Shown: piece after piece, positions 3,341 to 44,563 of the stretch
Position numbering within the stretch: position 1 is the stretch's first letter
Layout: each line of letters starts with the position of its first letter
IMG/VR virus record: IMGVR_UViG_3300025310_000077
Location: 1 to 44,651 of that record
Source: a virus
Direction: 5' to 3' (one strand)
DNA: 44,651 nucleotides
Translations under genes and position numbers: made by a program
Notes under the pieces: generated by a model
Databases searched by the model: none
What the model was told of the DNA's origin: nothing
The model's input: the letters and a program-made list of their open reading frames with translations, nothing else

Positions 3341-3368
3341 ATTTTACGATATTCGCTTCAATCATCAA
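3341..3368 (-). promoter_or_regulatory. Sigma70-like promoter for gp47
   Basis: TTGATG (3368-3363) and TAAAAT (3346-3341) are separated by 16 bp on the minus strand, inside the last codons of gp55 and just before gp47. It has the same form as the promoter for gp46. Confidence 0.5.
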
Positions 3369-3816
3369 TAGTTATCTGATTCAAGATGTTGAATTTCTCA
3401 AGTTCATGGTTTATCTTATCAGCATTCTTGATGAGCTTATCCTTCAATGCCGAATGCTTCTTTTCTCTCTGTATAACTTGTAAGAATGCGTTGTATATGA
3501 TACTTGTGCAGTATGCGAATGCATTCATTTTCTTACCATTCTTAGCCGCATAATTCGGATCAAAAGAGGTAGAATACTTCAAAAGGAATAACTTCGCTTG
3601 AGACTTCATCTCGTCAAGATAAGTGTATTTCTTGAAAGATAACGAGGTAGCATATCTATCAACATGGATGGTAAATAATTCTCCAAGTCGCTCAGAGGCT
3701 TTACCAGACTTCTTATACTTGATAAGCTCCGAAGTATACTCGTCCTTGTCGATATAGTACCTAGACTGATCGGCAACAGGGTTACGCTTACGGATGGTTC
3801 TCTTTTTCTTTTCCAT
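3358..3816 (-). CDS. 55: Late-transcription sigma factor gp55
   Basis: This is a divergent sigma70-family subunit that directs host RNA polymerase to late promoters (TATAAATA) together with the sliding clamp. The 152-residue protein has the conserved helical core of gp55: a basic N-terminus, FTIHVDRYATSLSF, and then NAFAYCTSIIYNAFLQVIQRE (start near residue 97), which corresponds to the AYITQACFNAFVQRIKKE segment of T4 gp55 (sigma region 2). T4 gp55 is 185 residues, so this version is shorter at the C-terminus, where the clamp-binding peptide would lie. The tail here is FNILNQITIDD. The start has AAAGGAG upstream. A near-perfect late promoter at 36180 agrees with its presence. Confidence 0.85.
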   Translation of the reverse strand: MEKKKRTIRKRNPVADQSRYYIDKDEYTSELIKYKKSGKASERLGELFTIHVDRYATSLSFKKYTYLDEMKSQAKLFLLKYSTSFDPNYAAKNGKKMNAFAYCTSIIYNAFLQVIQREKKHSALKDKLIKNADKINHELEKFNILNQITIDD

Positions 3817-35290: not shown

Positions 35291-35842
35291 ATGCGATATC
35301 TATACACGACTGCTCTTATTATATCAACTTCGATATTTAATCCCCTAGCAGCCCCCGAAACCAAGATTGGATATGGATATTCTGCTCCTATAAAGGTAAT
35401 GTATGATGTAAAGCAGATAGAGTCGCCAGTTACCACCCCTGTAGCCCAGCCAGTTGTAGAAGAGCCGAAGGGAAAGTGGGTGACAGCAACCGTCACAGCA
35501 TATAGTCCGCATATCCGCTCTTGTGGGAAGTGGAGCCATCTTGGAAAGACTTCAACGGGCGTTAAGGTTCGCACTCCCAATCCAGACGATGCTTATGGAA
35601 TTGCTGCCGATCCAAAGGTTATTCCGTATGGAACCAAGGTTTATGTGCCTGGATACTATGAAATGCTCCAGAATAACAAGACTTGTATTCCCACTGAAAT
35701 GACTGAGGTTGATGATACTGGTGGCGCCATGCGTCAATCTGCTCGTAGGGGCATTATACATATTGATGTTCGCTTCCGCACCGAGAAAGCCGCTAAGGAG
35801 TGGGGCAAGAAGAAAATGGACATATTCATTTACGATGAGTAA
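35291..35842 (+). CDS. Secreted 3D-domain protein, probable cell-wall enzyme
   Basis: Residues 1-20 (MRYLYTTALIISTSIFNPLA) look like a signal peptide. The linker to about residue 55 is Pro/Val-rich. The C-terminal domain has the 3D (double-psi beta-barrel) motifs: VTAYSPH, CGKWSHLGKTSTG, GIAADPKVIPYGTKV, VDDTGGAMR and IHIDVRF with the catalytic-type Asp residues. Such domains occur in MltA-like lytic transglycosylases and Rpf-like proteins, so it may act on peptidoglycan during lysis or superinfection exclusion. Confidence 0.8.
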   Translation: MRYLYTTALIISTSIFNPLAAPETKIGYGYSAPIKVMYDVKQIESPVTTPVAQPVVEEPKGKWVTATVTAYSPHIRSCGKWSHLGKTSTGVKVRTPNPDDAYGIAADPKVIPYGTKVYVPGYYEMLQNNKTCIPTEMTEVDDTGGAMRQSARRGIIHIDVRFRTEKAAKEWGKKKMDIFIYDE

Positions 35843-35862: not shown

Positions 35863-36182
35863 TATTGAATACTAATTCATTTTTAGTAGTAAGTTATAGT
35901 ATAACATAGTAATAATAAAAGTATGGTATAATGTAGTAAAGGTATAACTTTATGAAATTATCCGAATATGCTAATTAAGTTGGTGTAACTTATAGAACGG
36001 CGTGAAATTGGTATAAATCTGGTAAATTACCAAATGCCGATAGGTCCTATCGGCAAGCAACAGCGATTGAGTAAAGTCAATAGAACTGGTTTTTATTGGT
36101 TATGCTCAGGTCAGGAGTCTATAGTCCCTGATACCCATAAAACTGGTTAAGTGGAATGATTTTCCATAAAATTAGTAACTAT
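35862..36182 (+). mobile_element. IS607-type nonautonomous element, copy 2
   Basis: This 321-bp copy is about 95 percent identical to copy 1 by eye. From its internal ATG it reads MKLSEYAN, stop, VGVTYRTA, so it shares the same nonsense codon in TnpA. It differs in a small palindrome in the middle (GCCGATAGG-T-CCTATCGGC) and small indels near the left end. The right end supplies the first bases of the TATAAATA late promoter. Confidence 0.82.
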
Positions 36183-36187
36183 AAATA
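36180..36187 (+). promoter_or_regulatory. T4-type late promoter
   Basis: TATAAATA matches the T4 late-promoter consensus recognised by gp55. It lies 31 nt before the ATG at 36218 and leads the operon 36218-44152, which fits late expression of head-related proteins. The first three bases belong to the end of the IS607-type element. Confidence 0.75.
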
Positions 36188-36217: not shown

Positions 36218-37699
36218 ATGAACTCAAGAAAGCTTATAACAGAAGCGTTTAGAACCTATTATGATGGCGGCTTGCTCATGGAGTTGGCTCGTAAGATAAA
36301 GTCATGGGCTAACTCGACTTCAATGCTGTATGAGCGTTGGAGGCGTCCTAATCGTGGAAGCATGAAGGAGCTAAAGATTCGCTCCCGTAAATATCACTAC
36401 GAGAAGGCTTCCGAAAACTCCAAGTTTGGTCCCGAATGGATTCTTCACGGAACAAGGGGGGCTAGATATGGGTTGTTCCGTGGAATCAATGATGAATATA
36501 TTCCTCTCAACCTCAAGACACGCAAGGTTGTAACCAAGGCTGGAACCTTCAAGGCAACTGAGTCTGGACTTGTATGGACAAGAGACTTGTCGATGCTTGA
36601 CAAGATAATAACCGGCGTAAATGAGTCTGTGGTTATAGCAGAAGGCGGAAACGCCGCTGAACAGCTTCTCCCAAAGCTTCAAGCCGCATCGGGGAACGCT
36701 AAACTCAAGTATTCGAAGATACCTCAAGCCGCCCTTGGCGTTGTATTCAAGGAGATAGTTGAGCCAATACTTATTGAGCTTACAGAGGCAGGACTTATTG
36801 ATAAGAATTACAAGACAGAGTTTGGACTTGGTTCAACTCGTCTTGCAGCTAAGATAGCTGGATATGATGTCAAGATATTCAAGTCGGAAACTCCAGAGGT
36901 TGTCGCTAAGGCAACCGCTGCTAAGAATACCTTCGGAGACTTGGATATTGATGTTGTTCTCACCAATGGAACCAAGATAGCCGACGTTGGAAAGTATCTC
37001 GAAGGCAAGCATCCCGAAAAGTACGCATTCAAGCTTGGTAACAAGGAAATAAACCTGGCTGTTGTTCTTGATGATAAGTCTGTCATACAGGTTGATATTG
37101 TCGATGTCACAACCGAAAAAGAAGATATGATGTTCATGCAGAGCAGTAGCATGGTTGACATATCGGCTGGTGTCAAGGGCGCAATTCAAAAGTGGCTTAT
37201 CAGAGCAGTATTGTCCGTCAAGGAGATTACACCTGCTCACAAGAAGCTTATAGCCCAAGCCCTCAAGAAGAATCCAGAATACTTGAAGTGGACACAACAG
37301 GGATACACCACACAGAAAGAAGGCGAGCCAGAGAAGCAAGTCGGACGCTACTCTCTTTCGACTGCTGGCGGTATATACCTCGTATTTGATATCTACAAGC
37401 CGGGAGTCAAGAGTAAGAAGCTCATCAAGGTATCCGAAGAGCCAGTCGCTCGCTTCTCAAACATGCCTGAGTTGATAGAATTCATCTTGCCTGGAGCAGA
37501 TGAAGATGTAGCCAACTCCTCTGTCAAGATGGCTGAGTATGTAAAAGAACATTTTGATACTGAGGATGTTGATAGAATATGGAATGCGTTTGTTGAGTCC
37601 ATGAATAACCAAGTCGGAAGGATGGATCCCGCAGACTTCAACGCTGGTATGTCCGTTATGGCTAAGATGTTTGGAAAACCCTGGAAAGCTGGAGAATAA
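36218..37699 (+). CDS. Pol-beta-type nucleotidyltransferase, probable internal head protein
   Basis: The start is the ATG at 36218, behind GGGGAG. The 493-residue product begins MNSRKLITEAFRTYYDGG, which resembles the T4 capsid-targeting leader ending in an (L/I)xE processing site. The core has the nucleotidyltransferase signature GLGSTR (Gly205-Ser206), GDLDIDVV (Asp241, Asp243, Asp245) and VIQVDIVDV (Asp293 or Asp296), giving the metal-binding triad. The C-terminal 200 residues are helical and unrecognised. The substrate, DNA end, tRNA or protein, is unknown. Confidence 0.65.
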   Translation: MNSRKLITEAFRTYYDGGLLMELARKIKSWANSTSMLYERWRRPNRGSMKELKIRSRKYHYEKASENSKFGPEWILHGTRGARYGLFRGINDEYIPLNLKTRKVVTKAGTFKATESGLVWTRDLSMLDKIITGVNESVVIAEGGNAAEQLLPKLQAASGNAKLKYSKIPQAALGVVFKEIVEPILIELTEAGLIDKNYKTEFGLGSTRLAAKIAGYDVKIFKSETPEVVAKATAAKNTFGDLDIDVVLTNGTKIADVGKYLEGKHPEKYAFKLGNKEINLAVVLDDKSVIQVDIVDVTTEKEDMMFMQSSSMVDISAGVKGAIQKWLIRAVLSVKEITPAHKKLIAQALKKNPEYLKWTQQGYTTQKEGEPEKQVGRYSLSTAGGIYLVFDIYKPGVKSKKLIKVSEEPVARFSNMPELIEFILPGADEDVANSSVKMAEYVKEHFDTEDVDRIWNAFVESMNNQVGRMDPADFNAGMSVMAKMFGKPWKAGE

Positions 37700-37702
37700 A
37701 AT

Positions 37703-40700
37703 ATGCCAAGAGAAGGAATAGGCAGATTTGCCGGAAAAAATGAATTCAGTGATGTCGAGTTCTTGGAGATATTCAAGGAGATTCTTCCTCATGTCCAGAG
37801 TGGTGAAATTGACTTGGACAGTATAAAGAACATTGATATGGTTGAGAAGATGGACTCATCATTCGTCCACTTCGGTATTAATCCAGCCGGTAAGTTTTTC
37901 ATGGAGTCTTCAAACTCTGGCGAAGTAACTGCTGATGATTATAAGCAGCGTTTTAGTCACACCTTCATGTCTGACTACAAGGCAGCTTTCGCCTCTCTTC
38001 TTGAGAATAAGCTATTCCAGTCAACCCTCATGAAGATATTCAAGAAGGTTGGAGCCGTTCGCTACGATGCTGAGTTGTTCCCCGTTCTCACCCATACTGG
38101 TGACGAGTCCGGCTACATAACTTTCGTAGCTACTAAGTATGACAAAGCTAAGTTTGGAACCAAGGGGGCATTCGTTGTATTCAAGTCATGGATAAAGGAT
38201 GAAAACGCTCTGTGGACTCGTCCGAATCCTAAGAAGAATATAGCCCTCATCGAAGCTATAGAAAACGCAGATTCCGTCGAGTGGCGTATCTACACCAATG
38301 AAAAACATGCGAAGCTTTCAGGCGTTGTTCAGCTAAAGGCTATCAATGTCGATAAGATGCTCGCATCGCCAGAAGCCATTGACGATGCTATAGAAGTTCT
38401 CAAGTCCCGTGGAAACACCACCATCAAGGCTCACTTGAAGAATGTTATCGCTGACTTGAAGGAGAAGCTACAGGGCGTTCTCGACAAGTATGCTGAAGAG
38501 ACTTCCTCCATATTCAGTAAGCCAGATTCACCTTCGCCCATCGAAGGTGTTGTTCTCCGCATCAAGAAGGCTAATGGAGACATATTCGAAATCAAGGGAA
38601 CCTCAAACGCATTCGACACTCTCAAGAAGCAGACATGGGCTACCCGTAGCAGTCTTGCAGAGTTAGAAGCCGTAACCGAGGGTTCATTCCTCAAGGACGC
38701 TCTTGGCTTGAAGACAGCCCAGGCTGCCGCTCTCAACAGAGCCATCAAGGAGTTTGGCGCTAAGTTCACCAGCAAGGAAAAGAATCCAGAGAAGCGTGAG
38801 CATGAATTCATTTTGAAGCTGTTTGACGAGATGCGTAACAAGGACGCCATGGTTCCACCAGAAGAAACCAAGAAGCGTGTCAATCAGATATTCGAAGTCG
38901 CTAAGAATCAGCTATCAGTCATCGTTGATGAATTCAAGTCGCAAAAGATTGATCCTGACAGCAAGCGCAAGTCGCTCGAATCCCTCAAGGCTATCATTGA
39001 GAAGTTCGATACCATTGAGAAGACTATCAATACTGATATGCCTGATGAAGCTTTCCAGTTGTATATCTTCAAGTTCATGTTGGATCGTCGTCTCAAGCAG
39101 TATGCTGGACAACACATGAATGCTGCCGAGCAGGACTACAGCAAGTTCTATGAAGGCGTAACTCCAGTCATTATCTGGAACGGAAGAGCGCAGCCTTGGC
39201 ACCGTGGACACGACGCCATGATTCAGTTGGCTAAGAAGAAGCTCGAAGAGTTGGGTGCAGAGAAGATATTGATTCTCATCGTCAAGGGTGGAAAGACTTC
39301 AATGAACAAGGAAGAGAATCCTTTGACTGAGAAGGATCAGAAGGCTCTCGTAGAAGCGATATATGCGGGGGACGATAGCGTTGTTGTATCTGACACCCCG
39401 CTCACAAACGGAAGCTTGTTCGCCATCATACAGAAGCTTGGTGAGATGAAGGCTTATATGGTTGGTTGGCTCGCTGGAAACGACAGAATAGAAGATTACA
39501 AGAAGCTATTGGGCAGCTTCAACGCTTCGGTATGGCTGAAGGATCACGCCAGCCTCCCAATCAAGGTAAACGCTAAAGGTGTAGCCGATGTTCAGATGAT
39601 AGAGACTCCAAGAGTCATGAGTGGAACCGCAGCTCGTGAATCTGCTAAGACTTCCGACTTCAAGACATGGCTGGCTAATGTAGCTCCACCACACTCACAG
39701 AATAACAAGGAAGCTGTTGGAATCTATAAGCAGATATACCAGTTACTCAACAGCATGAAGGCTGAGTCACTTCTTCGTGACATGATTCGTAAGAAGTTTA
39801 CGGAGAGTGTTGTATTGAATGAGCTTCACCCCGATGCTCCTCACATGGCTAATAAAATGCTGGATCGTATAGAGAAGCATATAGAAGAATATAATAATTC
39901 CCCCGAAGATAAAAAGAAAGATGCTTTGGAAAGGGTAAAGAAGTCTATCGGTCCTATAGAGACTGGTGTTAATTCTCCAGAATTCGAAAAACTTCCGGAC
40001 GATATAAAAAATAGAGCTAAGGAAATTCTTCAAAAAGTAAAGGAAATAAAATCATCAGCATCTTCAAATGCCGGGGATAAGATATCCGGTCCCGAAGCTG
40101 CTAAGAATATTGGAACCGATCGGAAGCCTTCGAACCTCCCATCAACGGTTCCCACAACGAAGCCGGAAGCGGTAGATAAGAAGAAGGAATTTGAAGCGTA
40201 TGTAAAGAAGATACCAAAGTATGCAGCAGCTTCGGATCCTGAGAGACTGAAAAAATTCTTATACGGATCATTAGGAGCATTGTCTGGAGCATTGGTGTGG
40301 GCAATGAAGACTGAGAATGAAAAGGGTGGCTCCGCTGCTGATGTATTCTCCGGCAAGGTTTCCGAAAAATGGACAGCTATACGGGATAAAATAAAGAAGG
40401 GTAAAGTAGCTGCCGATGAGATAAATCAGATGATAAAGTCCGCTGCTGATGATATGGGTGAGAACATGCAATCATATCTTGAGCTTAAAGAGTCTGCGAT
40501 GGATATTATGAATAAGTATAATCTTGGAGACAAGTTTGAGCAGTATGCCAATCAGAGAAGAATATCTGCTGCTAGACATGACAGCGGCAGTAAGATGCAG
40601 AGGGGGTTGGATGAAACAAAATATATATTCTTGTTGAATCACATTAGAATATTTGCTTCTGTAGAAGGTTTGGATGAGAATATAAAAGGTGGATTGAAGA

Positions 40701-40921
40701 ACATTATGGCTAAATATAAAGGAAAACCATCAGATGCTAAAAAAGCTATTACTGAGATAATTGACTCTCTTGGAAAAATGAATTTACCATATGATGTTAT
40801 TAGACGAGCCTTGGATAATAACCCAGGTATGGCTCCAAATGAACTAAAGAGCATAATAGAAAAGGCGATTTCCGATAGTAAGAATACTAAGACACCACCA
40901 AACACCAAACCAACCCCATAA
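37703..40921 (+). CDS. Large multidomain nucleotidyltransferase: ligase-type plus HIGH-type (NMNAT-like)
   Basis: In 1072 residues I see three parts. Residues 1-310 resemble the covalent nucleotidyltransferase (ligase/capping) fold: KMDSSF with Lys49 (motif I), FFMES (III), EGVVLRIK with Glu281 (IV) and FEIKG with Lys298 (V). Around 485-680 is a HIGH-type nucleotidylyltransferase, with WNGRAQPWHRGH giving His500 and His503 and resembling the GRFQPxHxGH of NMN adenylyltransferases. From 685 (MKAESLLRDMIRKKF...VVLNELHP) a leader-like segment starts a long helical tail, as though a second internal head protein were fused on. The ATG at 39755 is in frame. The gene starts 3 nt after 36218's stop. 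Confidence 0.65.
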   Translation: MPREGIGRFAGKNEFSDVEFLEIFKEILPHVQSGEIDLDSIKNIDMVEKMDSSFVHFGINPAGKFFMESSNSGEVTADDYKQRFSHTFMSDYKAAFASLLENKLFQSTLMKIFKKVGAVRYDAELFPVLTHTGDESGYITFVATKYDKAKFGTKGAFVVFKSWIKDENALWTRPNPKKNIALIEAIENADSVEWRIYTNEKHAKLSGVVQLKAINVDKMLASPEAIDDAIEVLKSRGNTTIKAHLKNVIADLKEKLQGVLDKYAEETSSIFSKPDSPSPIEGVVLRIKKANGDIFEIKGTSNAFDTLKKQTWATRSSLAELEAVTEGSFLKDALGLKTAQAAALNRAIKEFGAKFTSKEKNPEKREHEFILKLFDEMRNKDAMVPPEETKKRVNQIFEVAKNQLSVIVDEFKSQKIDPDSKRKSLESLKAIIEKFDTIEKTINTDMPDEAFQLYIFKFMLDRRLKQYAGQHMNAAEQDYSKFYEGVTPVIIWNGRAQPWHRGHDAMIQLAKKKLEELGAEKILILIVKGGKTSMNKEENPLTEKDQKALVEAIYAGDDSVVVSDTPLTNGSLFAIIQKLGEMKAYMVGWLAGNDRIEDYKKLLGSFNASVWLKDHASLPIKVNAKGVADVQMIETPRVMSGTAARESAKTSDFKTWLANVAPPHSQNNKEAVGIYKQIYQLLNSMKAESLLRDMIRKKFTESVVLNELHPDAPHMANKMLDRIEKHIEEYNNSPEDKKKDALERVKKSIGPIETGVNSPEFEKLPDDIKNRAKEILQKVKEIKSSASSNAGDKISGPEAAKNIGTDRKPSNLPSTVPTTKPEAVDKKKEFEAYVKKIPKYAAASDPERLKKFLYGSLGALSGALVWAMKTENEKGGSAADVFSGKVSEKWTAIRDKIKKGKVAADEINQMIKSAADDMGENMQSYLELKESAMDIMNKYNLGDKFEQYANQRRISAARHDSGSKMQRGLDETKYIFLLNHIRIFASVEGLDENIKGGLKNIMAKYKGKPSDAKKAITEIIDSLGKMNLPYDVIRRALDNNPGMAPNELKSIIEKAISDSKNTKTPPNTKPTP

Positions 40922-40936
40922 GATACTGGAGAATAT

Positions 40937-41305
40937 ATGGCTGATAGATTAGAGAAACTTCCGGAGGATGCTGATGATTCTTTGAACGCTTTTATAGCGC
41001 AAGAAGCTCAATTTTTTAGTGAGTTGGCAAAGTGTGTAGAAAAAGCCAATGATATTTTGAAACGGGTTGCTGGTGATGCCGCTCGCGATAAAAATGTAAC
41101 ATATGTTTCGCGTCAGGATTACAAGAATTTCTTCAATCTAAATGATGAAATTATAGATTCATGGATAAAGTATGCAACTGATGTTCTTGGTAGAGAAGAA
41201 TTGGTGAGGGGAATTGAGAATATAAAAGGATCCTGGCTAAAGAAGGGTAAGAGCGGAAACGCTACAACTAATGATGCTGTGTCAAACGCAAACAAAACAA
41301 ACTAA
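40937..41305 (+). CDS. Hypothetical protein
   Basis: This 122-residue, helical and charged protein has no recognised family. MADRLEKLPEDADDSLNAFI shows no targeting leader. A Lys/Gly/Asn-rich tail closes it. It lies in the late operon and is probably co-expressed with 37703 and 41490. Confidence 0.55.
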   Translation: MADRLEKLPEDADDSLNAFIAQEAQFFSELAKCVEKANDILKRVAGDAARDKNVTYVSRQDYKNFFNLNDEIIDSWIKYATDVLGREELVRGIENIKGSWLKKGKSGNATTNDAVSNANKTN

Positions 41306-41317
41306 GAGTTTATCTAA

Positions 41318-41488
41318 ATGATAATCAAACGCTTTATAAACGGAAAACCTGTAGAAGAGATGGGGGATACTCCCCGTCCACCTTCCGTTTCTCCACAACC
41401 TAAGAAAGATTCTCCAAAGCCGCCACCGCCGCCAAAGAGACTGCCGATACCCGCTCCCACCAAGCGCGGGTGCGGGTGTGGGAAATAA
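41318..41488 (+). CDS. Small Pro-rich protein with Cys-rich C-terminus
   Basis: The 56-residue product starts at the ATG at 41318. A short folded start (MIIKRFINGKPVEEM) leads to a Pro/Lys-rich section (KDSPKPPPPPKRLPIPAP) and ends RGCGCGK. The paired Cys residues close to the end could bind metal or attach lipid. It fits tightly between 40937 and 41490 (1-nt gap), which supports it as a gene. Confidence 0.5.
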   Translation: MIIKRFINGKPVEEMGDTPRPPSVSPQPKKDSPKPPPPPKRLPIPAPTKRGCGCGK

Positions 41489-41489
41489 C

Positions 41490-42761
41490 ATGCGCTTTAG
41501 TCAATTCGTAAACGCTGTCCTAACCGAAGAGAAGAACCTTGGTGAAACCATGGAAGGAATCTTCGCCATAGCCATAGCCCTTCATATGGCTTATGGAAGA
41601 GTGGACAAAGGTATGCTGAATACTATCCGCCGCTCCCTCGACTTATCCAGTGGAAGAGCAAAGCATACTATTGATCCAAACATAGCCAGCGACAACATCT
41701 ACAACATAGAAGCGGACTCGGACGATAAAGTATCTGTCAAAGTAGAGATACGCCTTCGTCCAAGTAAGGTAGAAGGAATGTTTGGTAGCAATACAAGCGC
41801 CAACCCAAGAGCAGACGCTTACATAGATGCTCTCGTCAACAGAGTTCCGAACCTCAAGATAATAAAGAAGATACACGAATTCATGATTGAGGTTCTTACC
41901 AATCATAAGAAGGATGAAATTGACTTTACCGTAGTTGCTGACGGTGTATCAACATCAACATCGAAGAATACGCTGAAAGGCGATGTCCAGTTGAAGATAT
42001 CTGCTACAAGCAAAACAGATATACCGAAAGACTTGCGTGAGCCAATCGTATTCTCCCTGAAGTCGGAAGAGAATGCTACTAAGAGTACCGTATCTAACAT
42101 GGGTATATTCGTCGGATTGTTCCGTCTCTGCAAGCTATTCAATCTCCGCTTTATAGAAGGCTTGGAAAAGGTTGAAGACTTCCCTGACAGATACTCCAAG
42201 ATGCAGGAAATAGTCTATCAGCATCCAGATAAGATACCTGACGAGGATCATTTCATACACTATGTCAAGCAGTATATGTCTATTCAGGACAGATACTATT
42301 CAGGTGGCGGTGAGGGCGAAAGTGAAGTCGATAAGAAGGTATATCAAGCAAGAGATGAGCTTGAGCTTCTAAAGAGGACACTCAAGCGTTTCATTCAGGC
42401 TATGTCCGAAGAGATTCAGATGAAGGATAGCGATGTTTTTACTGCCGATCCGAGAGCCAGAGTATTCACCATGAAGTGCCTTGAATTCCTTCGCAAGCAG
42501 ATATTCGGTGAAGATGTTTCGAGAGTCATTAGCATAAAGAGCGGTGATGTCAAGGAAATAGATGCCGCCGACTTTGACGCTATGAAGGATAAGTATGTCA
42601 TAAACCTTCAAACCGATGAAACAGGAACCATGAGATTTTATGGTATTGACATAAATAATGAAAAGACATTATTATTCCAGATTCGTCCAAGACTTGAATA
42701 TAATCTGAAGAACGGGAAGAAGACGCAAACCCTTATGGTGGAGGTAGGAGATTTATTATGA
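41490..42761 (+). CDS. Probable restriction-endonuclease-fold internal head protein (A)
   Basis: The start is the ATG at 41490; the GTG at 41478 is in frame but overlaps the preceding gene. The 423-residue product begins MRFSQFVNAVLTEE, close to T4 internal-protein leaders, with a predicted cut after LTE. Downstream, MEGIFAIAIA (Glu22), GDVQLKI (Asp165) and PIVFSLKS (Lys191) follow the order E...D...SxK seen in PD-(D/E)xK enzymes. The protein at 42758 has the same order and similar flanking sequence. Function is inference. Confidence 0.6.
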   Translation: MRFSQFVNAVLTEEKNLGETMEGIFAIAIALHMAYGRVDKGMLNTIRRSLDLSSGRAKHTIDPNIASDNIYNIEADSDDKVSVKVEIRLRPSKVEGMFGSNTSANPRADAYIDALVNRVPNLKIIKKIHEFMIEVLTNHKKDEIDFTVVADGVSTSTSKNTLKGDVQLKISATSKTDIPKDLREPIVFSLKSEENATKSTVSNMGIFVGLFRLCKLFNLRFIEGLEKVEDFPDRYSKMQEIVYQHPDKIPDEDHFIHYVKQYMSIQDRYYSGGGEGESEVDKKVYQARDELELLKRTLKRFIQAMSEEIQMKDSDVFTADPRARVFTMKCLEFLRKQIFGEDVSRVISIKSGDVKEIDAADFDAMKDKYVINLQTDETGTMRFYGIDINNEKTLLFQIRPRLEYNLKNGKKTQTLMVEVGDLL

Positions 42762-44152
42762 ATGAGATAAGAGACGTAACGAATGCTGTATTGTTTGAGA
42801 GTGAAAATGTAAGTATTGATGAGTTTATTTCATTGAACCTCCCAACTATAAAAAAATTCGTTAGAGACTTTGACGTTTCTAAGAATGTCATTTACGATAG
42901 CAAAAAGAAACTATATAAAATAATAGTACCTAGAAGCCTTCGAGATAAATTCTCAGAGATGTTGAAAGTATATTTCGAATCTAAGGGTATCAAAAGTAAG
43001 CAACAAATGAGTTCTGACGGACAAACTATTATCGGCTACTTCTCAAAGAGTCTTAGAATTTTGTTCAAGCCCTCCGCTAACAAGGGAGATGTTTCGGAAG
43101 GACTTCTAGGAGCCGCTATCGTGGCTCGCTTCATAAACCCAAACATAGAAGCCATATCACCAAGTCATATAGATAAAGTCCTTGATGATATGAGGGGATT
43201 GTATGATGGTAAGATAAAAGTGGTTGAGAATACTTGGGCTATTCCAAACCCAAAACCAGACGAAGTTCAATTCAAGCTATCAATGCCTAAAACTTCTCTC
43301 AACGCCCTTCTCGTCAATAGAAATGAAGTTCGTCCTCTTTACGGCACTGTTATATCATACATAAACAGCAAGGATAAGGTTAGCCTTATAAAACATATAT
43401 GTTACTCTGAAAATGGAATATATAACAATGAAGAAGTAGATCGTGTTATGATATCTTCCACTGGAACTGAAAATCAGAGAGGAACAAAAATAGATGTTAG
43501 TGTTAAGATAAAGCGTGGAGATGGTAAGCCTGTTGAGTTGAAGAATCTTGGAAACATATCTTTGAAGTCTTTGGGAACCAAGCAGCTTTATCAATACGGT
43601 GGTGACAAAGCAGAAAATATAAGCGAATTCTTTGGTAATGTTTTTGGTATATCTCTACCAGACGATATACAAAGCAAGTATAACTCTACTAAAATATCTG
43701 GAGACAAAATAGAAAGTATTAAGACTATATTCCAATATGTTTACGAGAGAATAGTTTCAAAGATTTCCGGGGAAGTAAGTGCCGAAGAGTTTATAAATCA
43801 TCTAGCCAACGGTATAAAAAATGGTGCGTTAAAGGCAAAGGGATCCGAAAGCGAAGATCGCATAATACTTGTTCACTTGAGTAAAAATGACTTCCACGAA
43901 CTAGACTTCAATTTGGTTCATGAAAAGTTGAAGGGACATACTATATCAGCTTCCTTGACAACTGAAGGTGCAAACCCTAAGATAAAGATATTTGCTAAAA
44001 AGGGCAATAGTGAACCTAAGTTACTTATATATATCAGAGCTAGAAGAGATGGTAAGGGAATAAGAATTCTTCTCGAAAGAGAAAAGTATCTTGATGATTT
44101 GATAACATTATCAAAAGATGATATATACACCATCTCCAATTCGACAGCCTGA
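42758..44152 (+). CDS. Probable restriction-endonuclease-fold internal head protein (B)
   Basis: The 464-residue product overlaps 41490 by 4 nt. Its leader MNEIRDVTNAVLFESEN shares NAVLxE with the upstream protein. SEGLLGAAIVARF (Glu114), KIDVSVKI (Asp246) and NISLKSLGTKQL (Lys270) parallel the first protein; the ISLKS block also resembles HaeIII-type nucleases. The gene is more AT-rich than its neighbour. It ends the operon. The enzymatic role is not proven from sequence. Confidence 0.6.
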   Translation: MNEIRDVTNAVLFESENVSIDEFISLNLPTIKKFVRDFDVSKNVIYDSKKKLYKIIVPRSLRDKFSEMLKVYFESKGIKSKQQMSSDGQTIIGYFSKSLRILFKPSANKGDVSEGLLGAAIVARFINPNIEAISPSHIDKVLDDMRGLYDGKIKVVENTWAIPNPKPDEVQFKLSMPKTSLNALLVNRNEVRPLYGTVISYINSKDKVSLIKHICYSENGIYNNEEVDRVMISSTGTENQRGTKIDVSVKIKRGDGKPVELKNLGNISLKSLGTKQLYQYGGDKAENISEFFGNVFGISLPDDIQSKYNSTKISGDKIESIKTIFQYVYERIVSKISGEVSAEEFINHLANGIKNGALKAKGSESEDRIILVHLSKNDFHELDFNLVHEKLKGHTISASLTTEGANPKIKIFAKKGNSEPKLLIYIRARRDGKGIRILLEREKYLDDLITLSKDDIYTISNSTA

Positions 44153-44236: not shown

Positions 44237-44563
44237 ATGAAGCATCCCGCTAAGTACAGCGAAGAGCTTATTCCGCTCTTCAAGAAAACTCTCGTTGATT
44301 GTGGATTGACACCTGAATCAAAGGTGTTAGATCCTTTCGCCGGCACTGGTAAGATTCATGAGCTACCATTTGACACATACGGCATTGAAATAGAGCCTGA
44401 GTGGGCAAGTATGCATCCACGAACATTATGCGGGGATTCGACTAGAATGGGCTTTGCTGACGCCTTCTTCGACGCTATCTGCACATCACCTACTTACGGC
44501 AATCGCATGGCTGATAGCCACGACGCTAAAGACAAATCAAAACGGAATACATATAGTTACTAA
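44237..44563 (+). pseudogene. DNA methyltransferase, interrupted by IS607-type element
   Basis: The reading starts MKHPAKYSEELIPLFKKTL, then VLDPFAGTGKI (SAM motif I) and DAICTSPTYGNRMADSH (TSPxYG catalytic motif of amino-methyltransferases). It keeps the family sequence as far as SKRNTY, where THxLGR-like sequence would normally follow, but enters the element at 44553 and stops at 44563. The target-recognition part and C-terminal motifs would lie beyond the element. The gene is therefore probably disrupted, although the rest is outside the window. Confidence 0.75.

Follow-up and report, generated by a model that had tools for sequence, protein, structure and literature searches.

A late operon with predicted capsid-targeting leaders in a T4-like virus, and related leaders on virion enzymes of other phages

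Knowledge of the capsid-targeting sequence of phage T4 comes mostly from small proteins of E. coli phages. In T4, the internal proteins IPI-IPIII and Alt bear capsid-targeting sequences that are cut by the protease gp21, and a review has suggested that this targeting allows T4-like phages to package various proteins (PMC9026906). Here we describe an operon of five genes at positions 36218-44152 of a T4-like virus fragment of 44,651 bases (IMG/VR record IMGVR_UViG_3300025310_000077; the whole fragment is hereafter the window), in which the predicted presence of capsid-targeting leaders on late, enzyme-like proteins is well supported for the products of the genes starting at 36218 and 41490. We consider it probable that the operon is a late-expressed payload locus, with leaders of T4 type, cutting by gp21 and ejection of the products into the next host. 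The evidence from sequence covers the late promoter, the leaders, the protease of the lineage with its specificity, and a link between leaders and virions in other phages.

With T4 IPI-IPIII and Alt, the operon shares short leaders at the N-terminus with (L/I)-x-E as last residues, probable late expression, unrelated bodies behind similar leaders and, in its lineage, a gp21-type protease, 41490 resembling IPI and 36218 resembling Alt and gp21; it differs from T4 in that its cargo is a multi-gene operon of large proteins, in which similarity to known families was detected only for a cytidylyltransferase domain, and in that one cargo protein is a fusion which appears to contain a cleavage site in its interior. 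Phages S-CREM2 and S-SCSM1 (PMC10665884, PMC9602691) are alike in having cytidylyltransferase/NMNAT-like proteins and a Pol-beta-type nucleotidyltransferase in their virions, with the late promoter CTATAAATA before several virion enzymes, whereas the lineage of the window lies far from other known T4-like phages. Many head proteins of phiKZ and SPN3US (PMC5694885, PMC10052503) are likewise cut after Glu by a gp21-like prohead protease and ejected, but these phages belong to another group, and the comparison is one of description, not of homology. Polyvalent proteins and head-packaged ADP-ribosyltransferases (PMC9503650) are also enzymes predicted to be packaged and injected; there packaging was deduced from gene context or fusion to a head protein, whereas in the window it is deduced from a targeting leader. 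The T4 capsid-targeting mechanism is known already and the operon is not a categorically new system; within the open-access literature searched, three things appear new: the operon of enzymes, the internal site in 37703 and the leader link to cyanophage virion enzymes.

All five open reading frames of the late operon proposed in the initial annotation were found, with a T4-type late promoter in front. The features are as follows.

3358-3816, minus strand: gp55-like late sigma factor (PHROG 234, E = 4e-18), the expected reader of TATAAATA
36180-36187, plus strand: T4-type late promoter TATAAATA, 38 nucleotides 5' of the 36218 start, kept in both relatives
36218-37699, plus strand: leader protein 1, 493 amino acids, possible Pol-beta-type nucleotidyltransferase (motif only)
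36218-36244, plus strand: leader MNSRKLITE, predicted cut after Glu9 (orthologs and profile)
37703-40921, plus strand: large fusion protein, 1072 amino acids, with an unassigned N-terminal domain, a cytidylyltransferase-like domain, a divergent linker with L-x-E and a conserved C-terminal domain
39167-39766, plus strand: cytidylyltransferase/NMNAT-like domain, about residues 489-688 (PHROG 395, E = 2e-8; PF01467, 22.9 bits, cut-off 21)
39815-39823, plus strand: predicted internal prohead-protease site VLNE/L, Leu705-Glu707, kept in three orthologs
40937-41305, plus strand: small conserved operon protein, 122 amino acids, without leader
41490-42761, plus strand: leader protein 2, 423 amino acids, unassigned family, SLKS motif
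41490-41528, plus strand: leader MRFSQFVNAVLTE, predicted cut after Glu13 (ortholog, profile, likeness to IPI)
42758-44152, plus strand: 464-amino-acid protein whose family is widespread among marine T4-like phages (PHROG 3560, E = 9e-14)

Recognisable T4-like genes on the window are gp46/47, gp55, gp43, UvsX, gp41, gp32, gp45, gp44, gp62 and RegA, and structural genes are absent from this fragment. Close relatives are few (G001, 63.7 kb; G002, G003 and G004), with polymerases 82-88% identical to that of the window, and the more distant T4-like contigs found via the polymerase reach only 25-31% polymerase identity. Megablast of the operon against phages gave no match. The box TATAAATA occurs in the window at chance level (3 copies, 3.6 expected), and for the copy at 36180 position and conservation carry weight, the count does not. 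It is retained upstream of the orthologs in both operon-bearing relatives, where the surrounding DNA has diverged. On sister contigs the same box lies 24-38 nucleotides ahead of gp21, gp22, a gene for a large acidic protein of core-like appearance, and several more genes with leaders. Its conservation across three genomes and its presence at gp21 and gp22 bear out the promoter first proposed. Since the box is kept in relatives and stands before head genes, and since the window encodes gp55, late expression of the operon together with the head genes is likely. The start at 36218 was preferred over 36194 for its better Shine-Dalgarno sequence (GGGGAG).

The leaders themselves were then compared among orthologs. 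The N-terminus of 36218 reads MNSRKLITE/AFRTYYDG (slash, predicted cut) and those of its orthologs MQTKKYLTE/VFRTYYDG (L003) and MKNVMTE/AFRSFYEG (L004), the latter with Met in place of Leu/Ile at P3, while 41490 begins MRFSQFVNAVLTE/EKN and its ortholog in G001 MKFSNFISRPLTE/EKN, a shape that matches T4 IPI. In both proteins the conserved N-terminal segment thus has the length (about 7-20 residues) and the final (L/I)-x-E of a T4-type leader. Leaders of the T4 controls are MKTYQEFIAE (IPII, IPIII), MKTFKEFTSTTTPVSTITE (IPI) and MELITE (Alt), and in place of the single shared leader peptide originally described we find two styles, a short (K)LITE (36218, gp21, T4 Alt) and MKxFxxF...LTE (41490, T4 IPI-III).

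Near the N-terminus, [LI]xE was present in four of the five operon genes and in 6 of the 45 others (Fisher p = 0.004, post hoc); one of the four, 40937 (LPE), is not a leader, and counting three gives p = 0.035. Because the tripeptide is common (10 of 50 window genes have one whose Glu lies no further in than residue 16), every gene of the lineage was scored instead with a two-block profile derived from T4 leaders and those of other phages, against a background of 1,406 internal segments starting at Met (decoys). The ranking was headed by 36218, above all 1,406 decoys; next came three gp21 orthologs and the two 36218 orthologs, and after these the G001 ortholog of 41490 (p = 0.007); 41490 itself and an internal segment of 37703 each gave p = 0.038, and 42758 gave p = 0.32. 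Among the T4 controls Alt gave p = 0.007 and gp21 p = 0.038, so that values near 0.04, as for 41490 and the 37703 segment, fit a real but divergent leader, although taken alone they are not strong. A test for N-terminal [LI]xE conserved among orthologs was not discriminating (9 of 69 groups, including the clamp and a glycosyltransferase), and it missed 36218 because of the ortholog with Met at P3. The LITE leader of 36218, with the top score in the lineage, its presence in orthologs and a KLITE common with gp21, and the NAVLTE leader of 41490, kept in the ortholog, were both upheld. The third, NAVLFE of 42758 (MNEIRDVTNAVLFE), was not, scoring as above in a family whose marine T4-like homologs mostly lack a leader.

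The protease expected to cut these leaders is encoded by the lineage. All six sister contigs examined (L196-L201) encode gp20 and gp21, in most cases together with gp22 and gp23, and their gp21 matches Peptidase_S77 (PF03420, E = 1e-27 to 2e-35) and begins MFKLITES or MYKLITEA, with the same KLITE as 36218. The gp23 sites are VLSE/AASSAGG, QLNE/AASSAGG and ALKE/TASSAGG, the last two each from a relative, where T4 has FLTE/AEIGG; read by analogy with T4, they indicate that the lineage protease very probably cuts after L-x-E. The comparison with gp21 specificity that the initial annotation had proposed therefore yields gp23 processing sites of the form L(S/N/K)E/(A/T)ASS, that is, L-x-E. Lack of a gp21-type protease in the genome had been named as an observation that would speak against the leaders; the series gp20-gp21-gp22-gp23 was found on sister contigs and not on the 44.65 kb window fragment. 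One of these contigs, L201, comes from sample 3300006865, which also contains a polymerase 100% identical to that of the window, so that one phage population is likely, not certain.

The fusion protein 37703 has no N-terminal leader. A fourth leader had been placed inside it, after Met685; the L-x-E site is kept, but the conserved Met is 694, not 685, which makes it a candidate for internal cleavage and not a translational leader. All three orthologs retain Met694 and L-x-E-L (MIRKKFTESVVLNEL, MVKRMFLTEL and MVRNKFTEGFVLNEL; sites LNEL, LTEL and LNEL, respectively), and the invariant columns among them amount to 60% at residues 704-708, 26% and 12% in the linker on either side, and 71-78% in the domains. 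Since no ribosome-binding site lies at Met694, we infer an old gene fusion in which a former leader has become an internal cut site, and cleavage there by the prohead protease is plausible. The cytidylyltransferase/NMNAT-like domain of 37703, with motifs GRAQPWHRGH (HxGH type: HRGH) and PRVMSGTAAR (SGTAAR) and weak similarity to the NMNAT found in S-SCSM1 virions (E = 1e-3), is the sole operon function established by profile. A KxD motif had suggested that 37703 is related to the leader-bearing DUF6267 family; hhalign detected no such homology, and a ligase-type N-terminal domain was accordingly dropped as a claim.

The nucleotidyltransferase assignment made earlier for this operon is sustained for 37703 by PHROG and Pfam profiles, and for 36218 it depends on a motif read by eye (GSTRLA...FGDLDIDVVL...VIQVDIVDV; GSTR...DLDIDVVL) without a profile match. 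This protein is perhaps a second nucleotidyltransferase, of Pol-beta type; it had no match in Pfam, PHROG or PDB, Pol-beta-type profiles (PF01909 and kin) included, none by tblastn against phages and none against L087, and its AlphaFold2 model, from three sequences, was unusable (predicted local distance difference test, pLDDT, 48). For 41490, tblastn against phages and a single-sequence scan of viral contigs were empty, and a PDB sequence search gave nothing convincing; its SLKS motif suggests a restriction-endonuclease-like fold. In the 42758 family (17-sequence alignment), N.GD..E (E114), D246, SLK270 and Q276 are invariant, a PD-(D/E)XK-like pattern. The AlphaFold2 model of 42758 (pLDDT 76) had no Foldseek match in PDB, and in a viral library matched clearly only a cyanophage homolog, plus one weak match. 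The nuclease-like fold first noted in this operon, read here in 41490 and 42758, has the motif pattern in its favour and the null PDB structure search of the 42758 model against it, and both are perhaps restriction-endonuclease-fold proteins. No ortholog of 42758 was found in the close relatives; in L003 its position is held by a protein without detectable homology, starting MNQIKILMENVLGLNE, and judged by sequence L003 and the window carry different cargo at the same place.

As the earlier annotation had suggested, the leader was sought across other phages, by scanning viral contigs for DNA encoding MK(S/T)FxxF(L/I)TE. At least 85 matches in at least 80 loci were obtained, on diverse cargo; among the matches listed, 83 of 85 have an in-frame stop within 50 codons upstream and are likely gene starts, and the bodies are very diverse, with cytidylyltransferases in 15 of 52 sampled, besides DUF6267, P-loop kinase/zeta-like proteins, poly(A)/tRNA nucleotidyltransferase, S-adenosylmethionine (SAM) lyase, nucleotidase, HNH and ADP-ribosyltransferase-like proteins. 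T4 hallmark genes were checked on only part of the leader-bearing contigs. We also scored genes of Synechococcus phage S-CREM2, whose virion proteome is published (PMC10665884, Table 3), first 141 and then 52 more of 219 (about 26 left out). Among the 141 genes, the four best leaders belong to a cytidylyltransferase (MKNFSSFLTE), an APH-like kinase (MKRFDAFLTE), hypothetical protein 13 (MKDLHSFLTE) and a SAM hydrolase (MKDFDSFLEE), all virion-detected, and a score of at least 10 was reached by 4 of 18 virion-detected genes versus 0 of 123 others (p = 2e-4). The best of the further 52 was ORF136 (MQTFSMFFSE), also virion-detected, with a baseplate protein next; the five best leader scores among the genes scored are thus all virion-detected proteins. 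The S-CREM2 paper makes no mention of a targeting leader (PMC10665884). In S-SCSM1, the virion NMNAT starts MKSFLQFLKE, and neighbouring virion proteins score low. The S-CREM2 proteome, together with the NMNAT of S-SCSM1, points to the same tag on enzymes across T4-like ocean phages. The S-CREM2 virion protein ORF156 (L213:10013-10726), a Pol-beta-type nucleotidyltransferase, has the leader MKKLISE, and its homolog L095:9771-11384, 47% identical to it from just behind the leader, has MKSFSSFITE, so both leader styles occur on one body and leaders swap.

On balance we lean towards the view that in T4-like phages the capsid-targeting leader serves generally as an exchangeable delivery tag, MKxFxxF(L/I)xE or KLI(S/T)E turning a late gene into injected cargo. 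If true, the T4-like head would be an adaptable effector-delivery system, able to carry nucleotidyltransferases, kinases, ADP-ribosyltransferases, SAM-degrading enzymes and perhaps a Cas9-type nuclease too; sequence alone would suffice to read what uncultured phages deliver; and the window would hold one example, in which a fusion is cut apart within the prohead. A tag marking enzymes across T4-like ocean phages would offer an explanation for cyanophage virion enzymes that have no known packaging route, and what an uncultured phage injects would become a sequence search testable by proteomics.

Several further observations concern these cargo proteins. Many of them (L092, L149, L151, L056, L065, L215:4920-6149 and others) share a short module behind the leader, at about residues 15-50 (GDGHGGWxDxxGxFVAKT). 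Leader-bearing proteins of L123, L089 and L212:3837-5081 resemble the S-CREM2 SAM hydrolase by eye; by degrading SAM, an enzyme that enters with the DNA could shut off host methyltransferases and SAM-dependent restriction together. The virion-detected Cas9-type protein of S-CREM2 (L212:7704-10313, OR473000) contains RFASFMAEA, 17 residues downstream of the annotated start, and an SDGHGS module after this leader-like segment, as in many leader-bearing cytidylyltransferases; a packaged Cas9-type nuclease would be remarkable.

For the operon of the window, the favoured reading is as follows. After late transcription by gp55, the leader would bind the prohead core and draw in 36218, 41490 and, via the internal site, the C-terminal part of 37703; gp21 would cut after L-x-E during head maturation; and the freed proteins would stay in the head beside the DNA, to be ejected at the next infection and to act before any phage gene expression. 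Packaging, cutting and ejection are inferred here from T4 (PMC9026906) and from the S-CREM2 association. 37703 would contribute a nucleotidyltransferase of the CTP_transf/NMNAT-like superfamily, members of which are known from cyanophage virions. The likeliest role of the proteins would lie in early takeover or counter-defence, by way of NAD/nucleotide or nucleic-acid chemistry, and any specific version of it is tentative, possible but short of probable.

A number of points weigh against this reading. The operon is present in two close relatives only, and 41490 has a single ortholog; [LI]xE alone is weak evidence, and the 42758 leader fails the profile test, at background score; 36218 and 41490 have no recognised family, their enzyme roles being motif-level. 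gp21 is linked to the window's contig, which does not carry it, by synteny, lineage and shared sample. The virion mass spectrometry data come from cyanophage analogs only, some virion proteins of S-CREM2 and S-SCSM1 show no leader that can be recognised, and virion mass spectrometry matches may include contaminants, according to the S-SCSM1 authors (PMC9602691).

Among other explanations, the products could be internal head or core components, bearing leaders and cut by gp21 but serving head assembly or DNA condensation, with no action in a new host. T4 gp21, gp22, gp67 and gp68 also have N-terminal L-x-E or I-x-E sites, and further leader proteins of the lineage, encoded next to gp20, resemble acidic core proteins; yet 37703 retains nucleotidyltransferase motifs, enzyme families dominate the recognisable cargo elsewhere, and the swap of 42758 in L003 is what variable cargo would show, all of which leaves this explanation unlikely. 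Somewhat less probable still is a specific version of the payload reading, a restriction-modification weapon that is injected and turned on the DNA of the host or of rivals, in which 41490 and 42758 would be packaged nucleases and a methyltransferase at 44237 would protect the phage genome: the E...D...SLK pattern of the 42758 family, the methyltransferase-like gene downstream and the Dam genes adjoining a homolog in ACG-2014f agree with it, but no structural match to any nuclease was obtained, the 42758 leader is unsupported, the methyltransferase-like reading frame is short here and could be broken, and neighbouring methyltransferases were checked at a minority of homolog loci. That the L-x-E matches are coincidental and the genes ordinary late cytoplasmic enzymes, as the tripeptide in 10 of 50 window genes and the background score of 42758 would allow, is the least probable, given the rank of 36218 among all lineage genes, the conservation among orthologs against divergent flanks, a gp21 with the same KLITE start and the S-CREM2 virion link.

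Beside gp20 in relatives lies a second cluster of leader proteins (L045:11558-14424, L013:293-2706), in which the body GIWAWNKGKEV has the leader MSTLRENFFKNRGLAVNPLNE in G001 and stands behind MNLKDIKKEVKKITE in G003. Directly downstream of the operon, positions 44237-44563 encode a methyltransferase-like reading frame of 108 amino acids, and since that of a relative (L003:16532-17167) has 211, the window copy looks truncated or frameshifted. Immediately 5' of the operon are a 3D-domain protein (35291-35842; PF06725, peptidoglycan-enzyme-like) and a decayed reading frame (35950-36150, MKLSEYAN*VGVTYRTA*NWYKSGKLPNA), which presumably resembles the start of an IS607-type recombinase and for which Pfam gives a sub-threshold HTH_17 match only. 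Nucleotide-sugar epimerases and many glycosyltransferases (12877-35233) lie amid and after the replication genes and reach up to the operon. Inside the operon, reading of the sequence added one small unlisted gene:

41318-41488, plus strand: open reading frame of 56 amino acids, proline-rich, ending GCGCGK

The ACG-2014f cyanophage protein in the corresponding region ends GGGGCGC.

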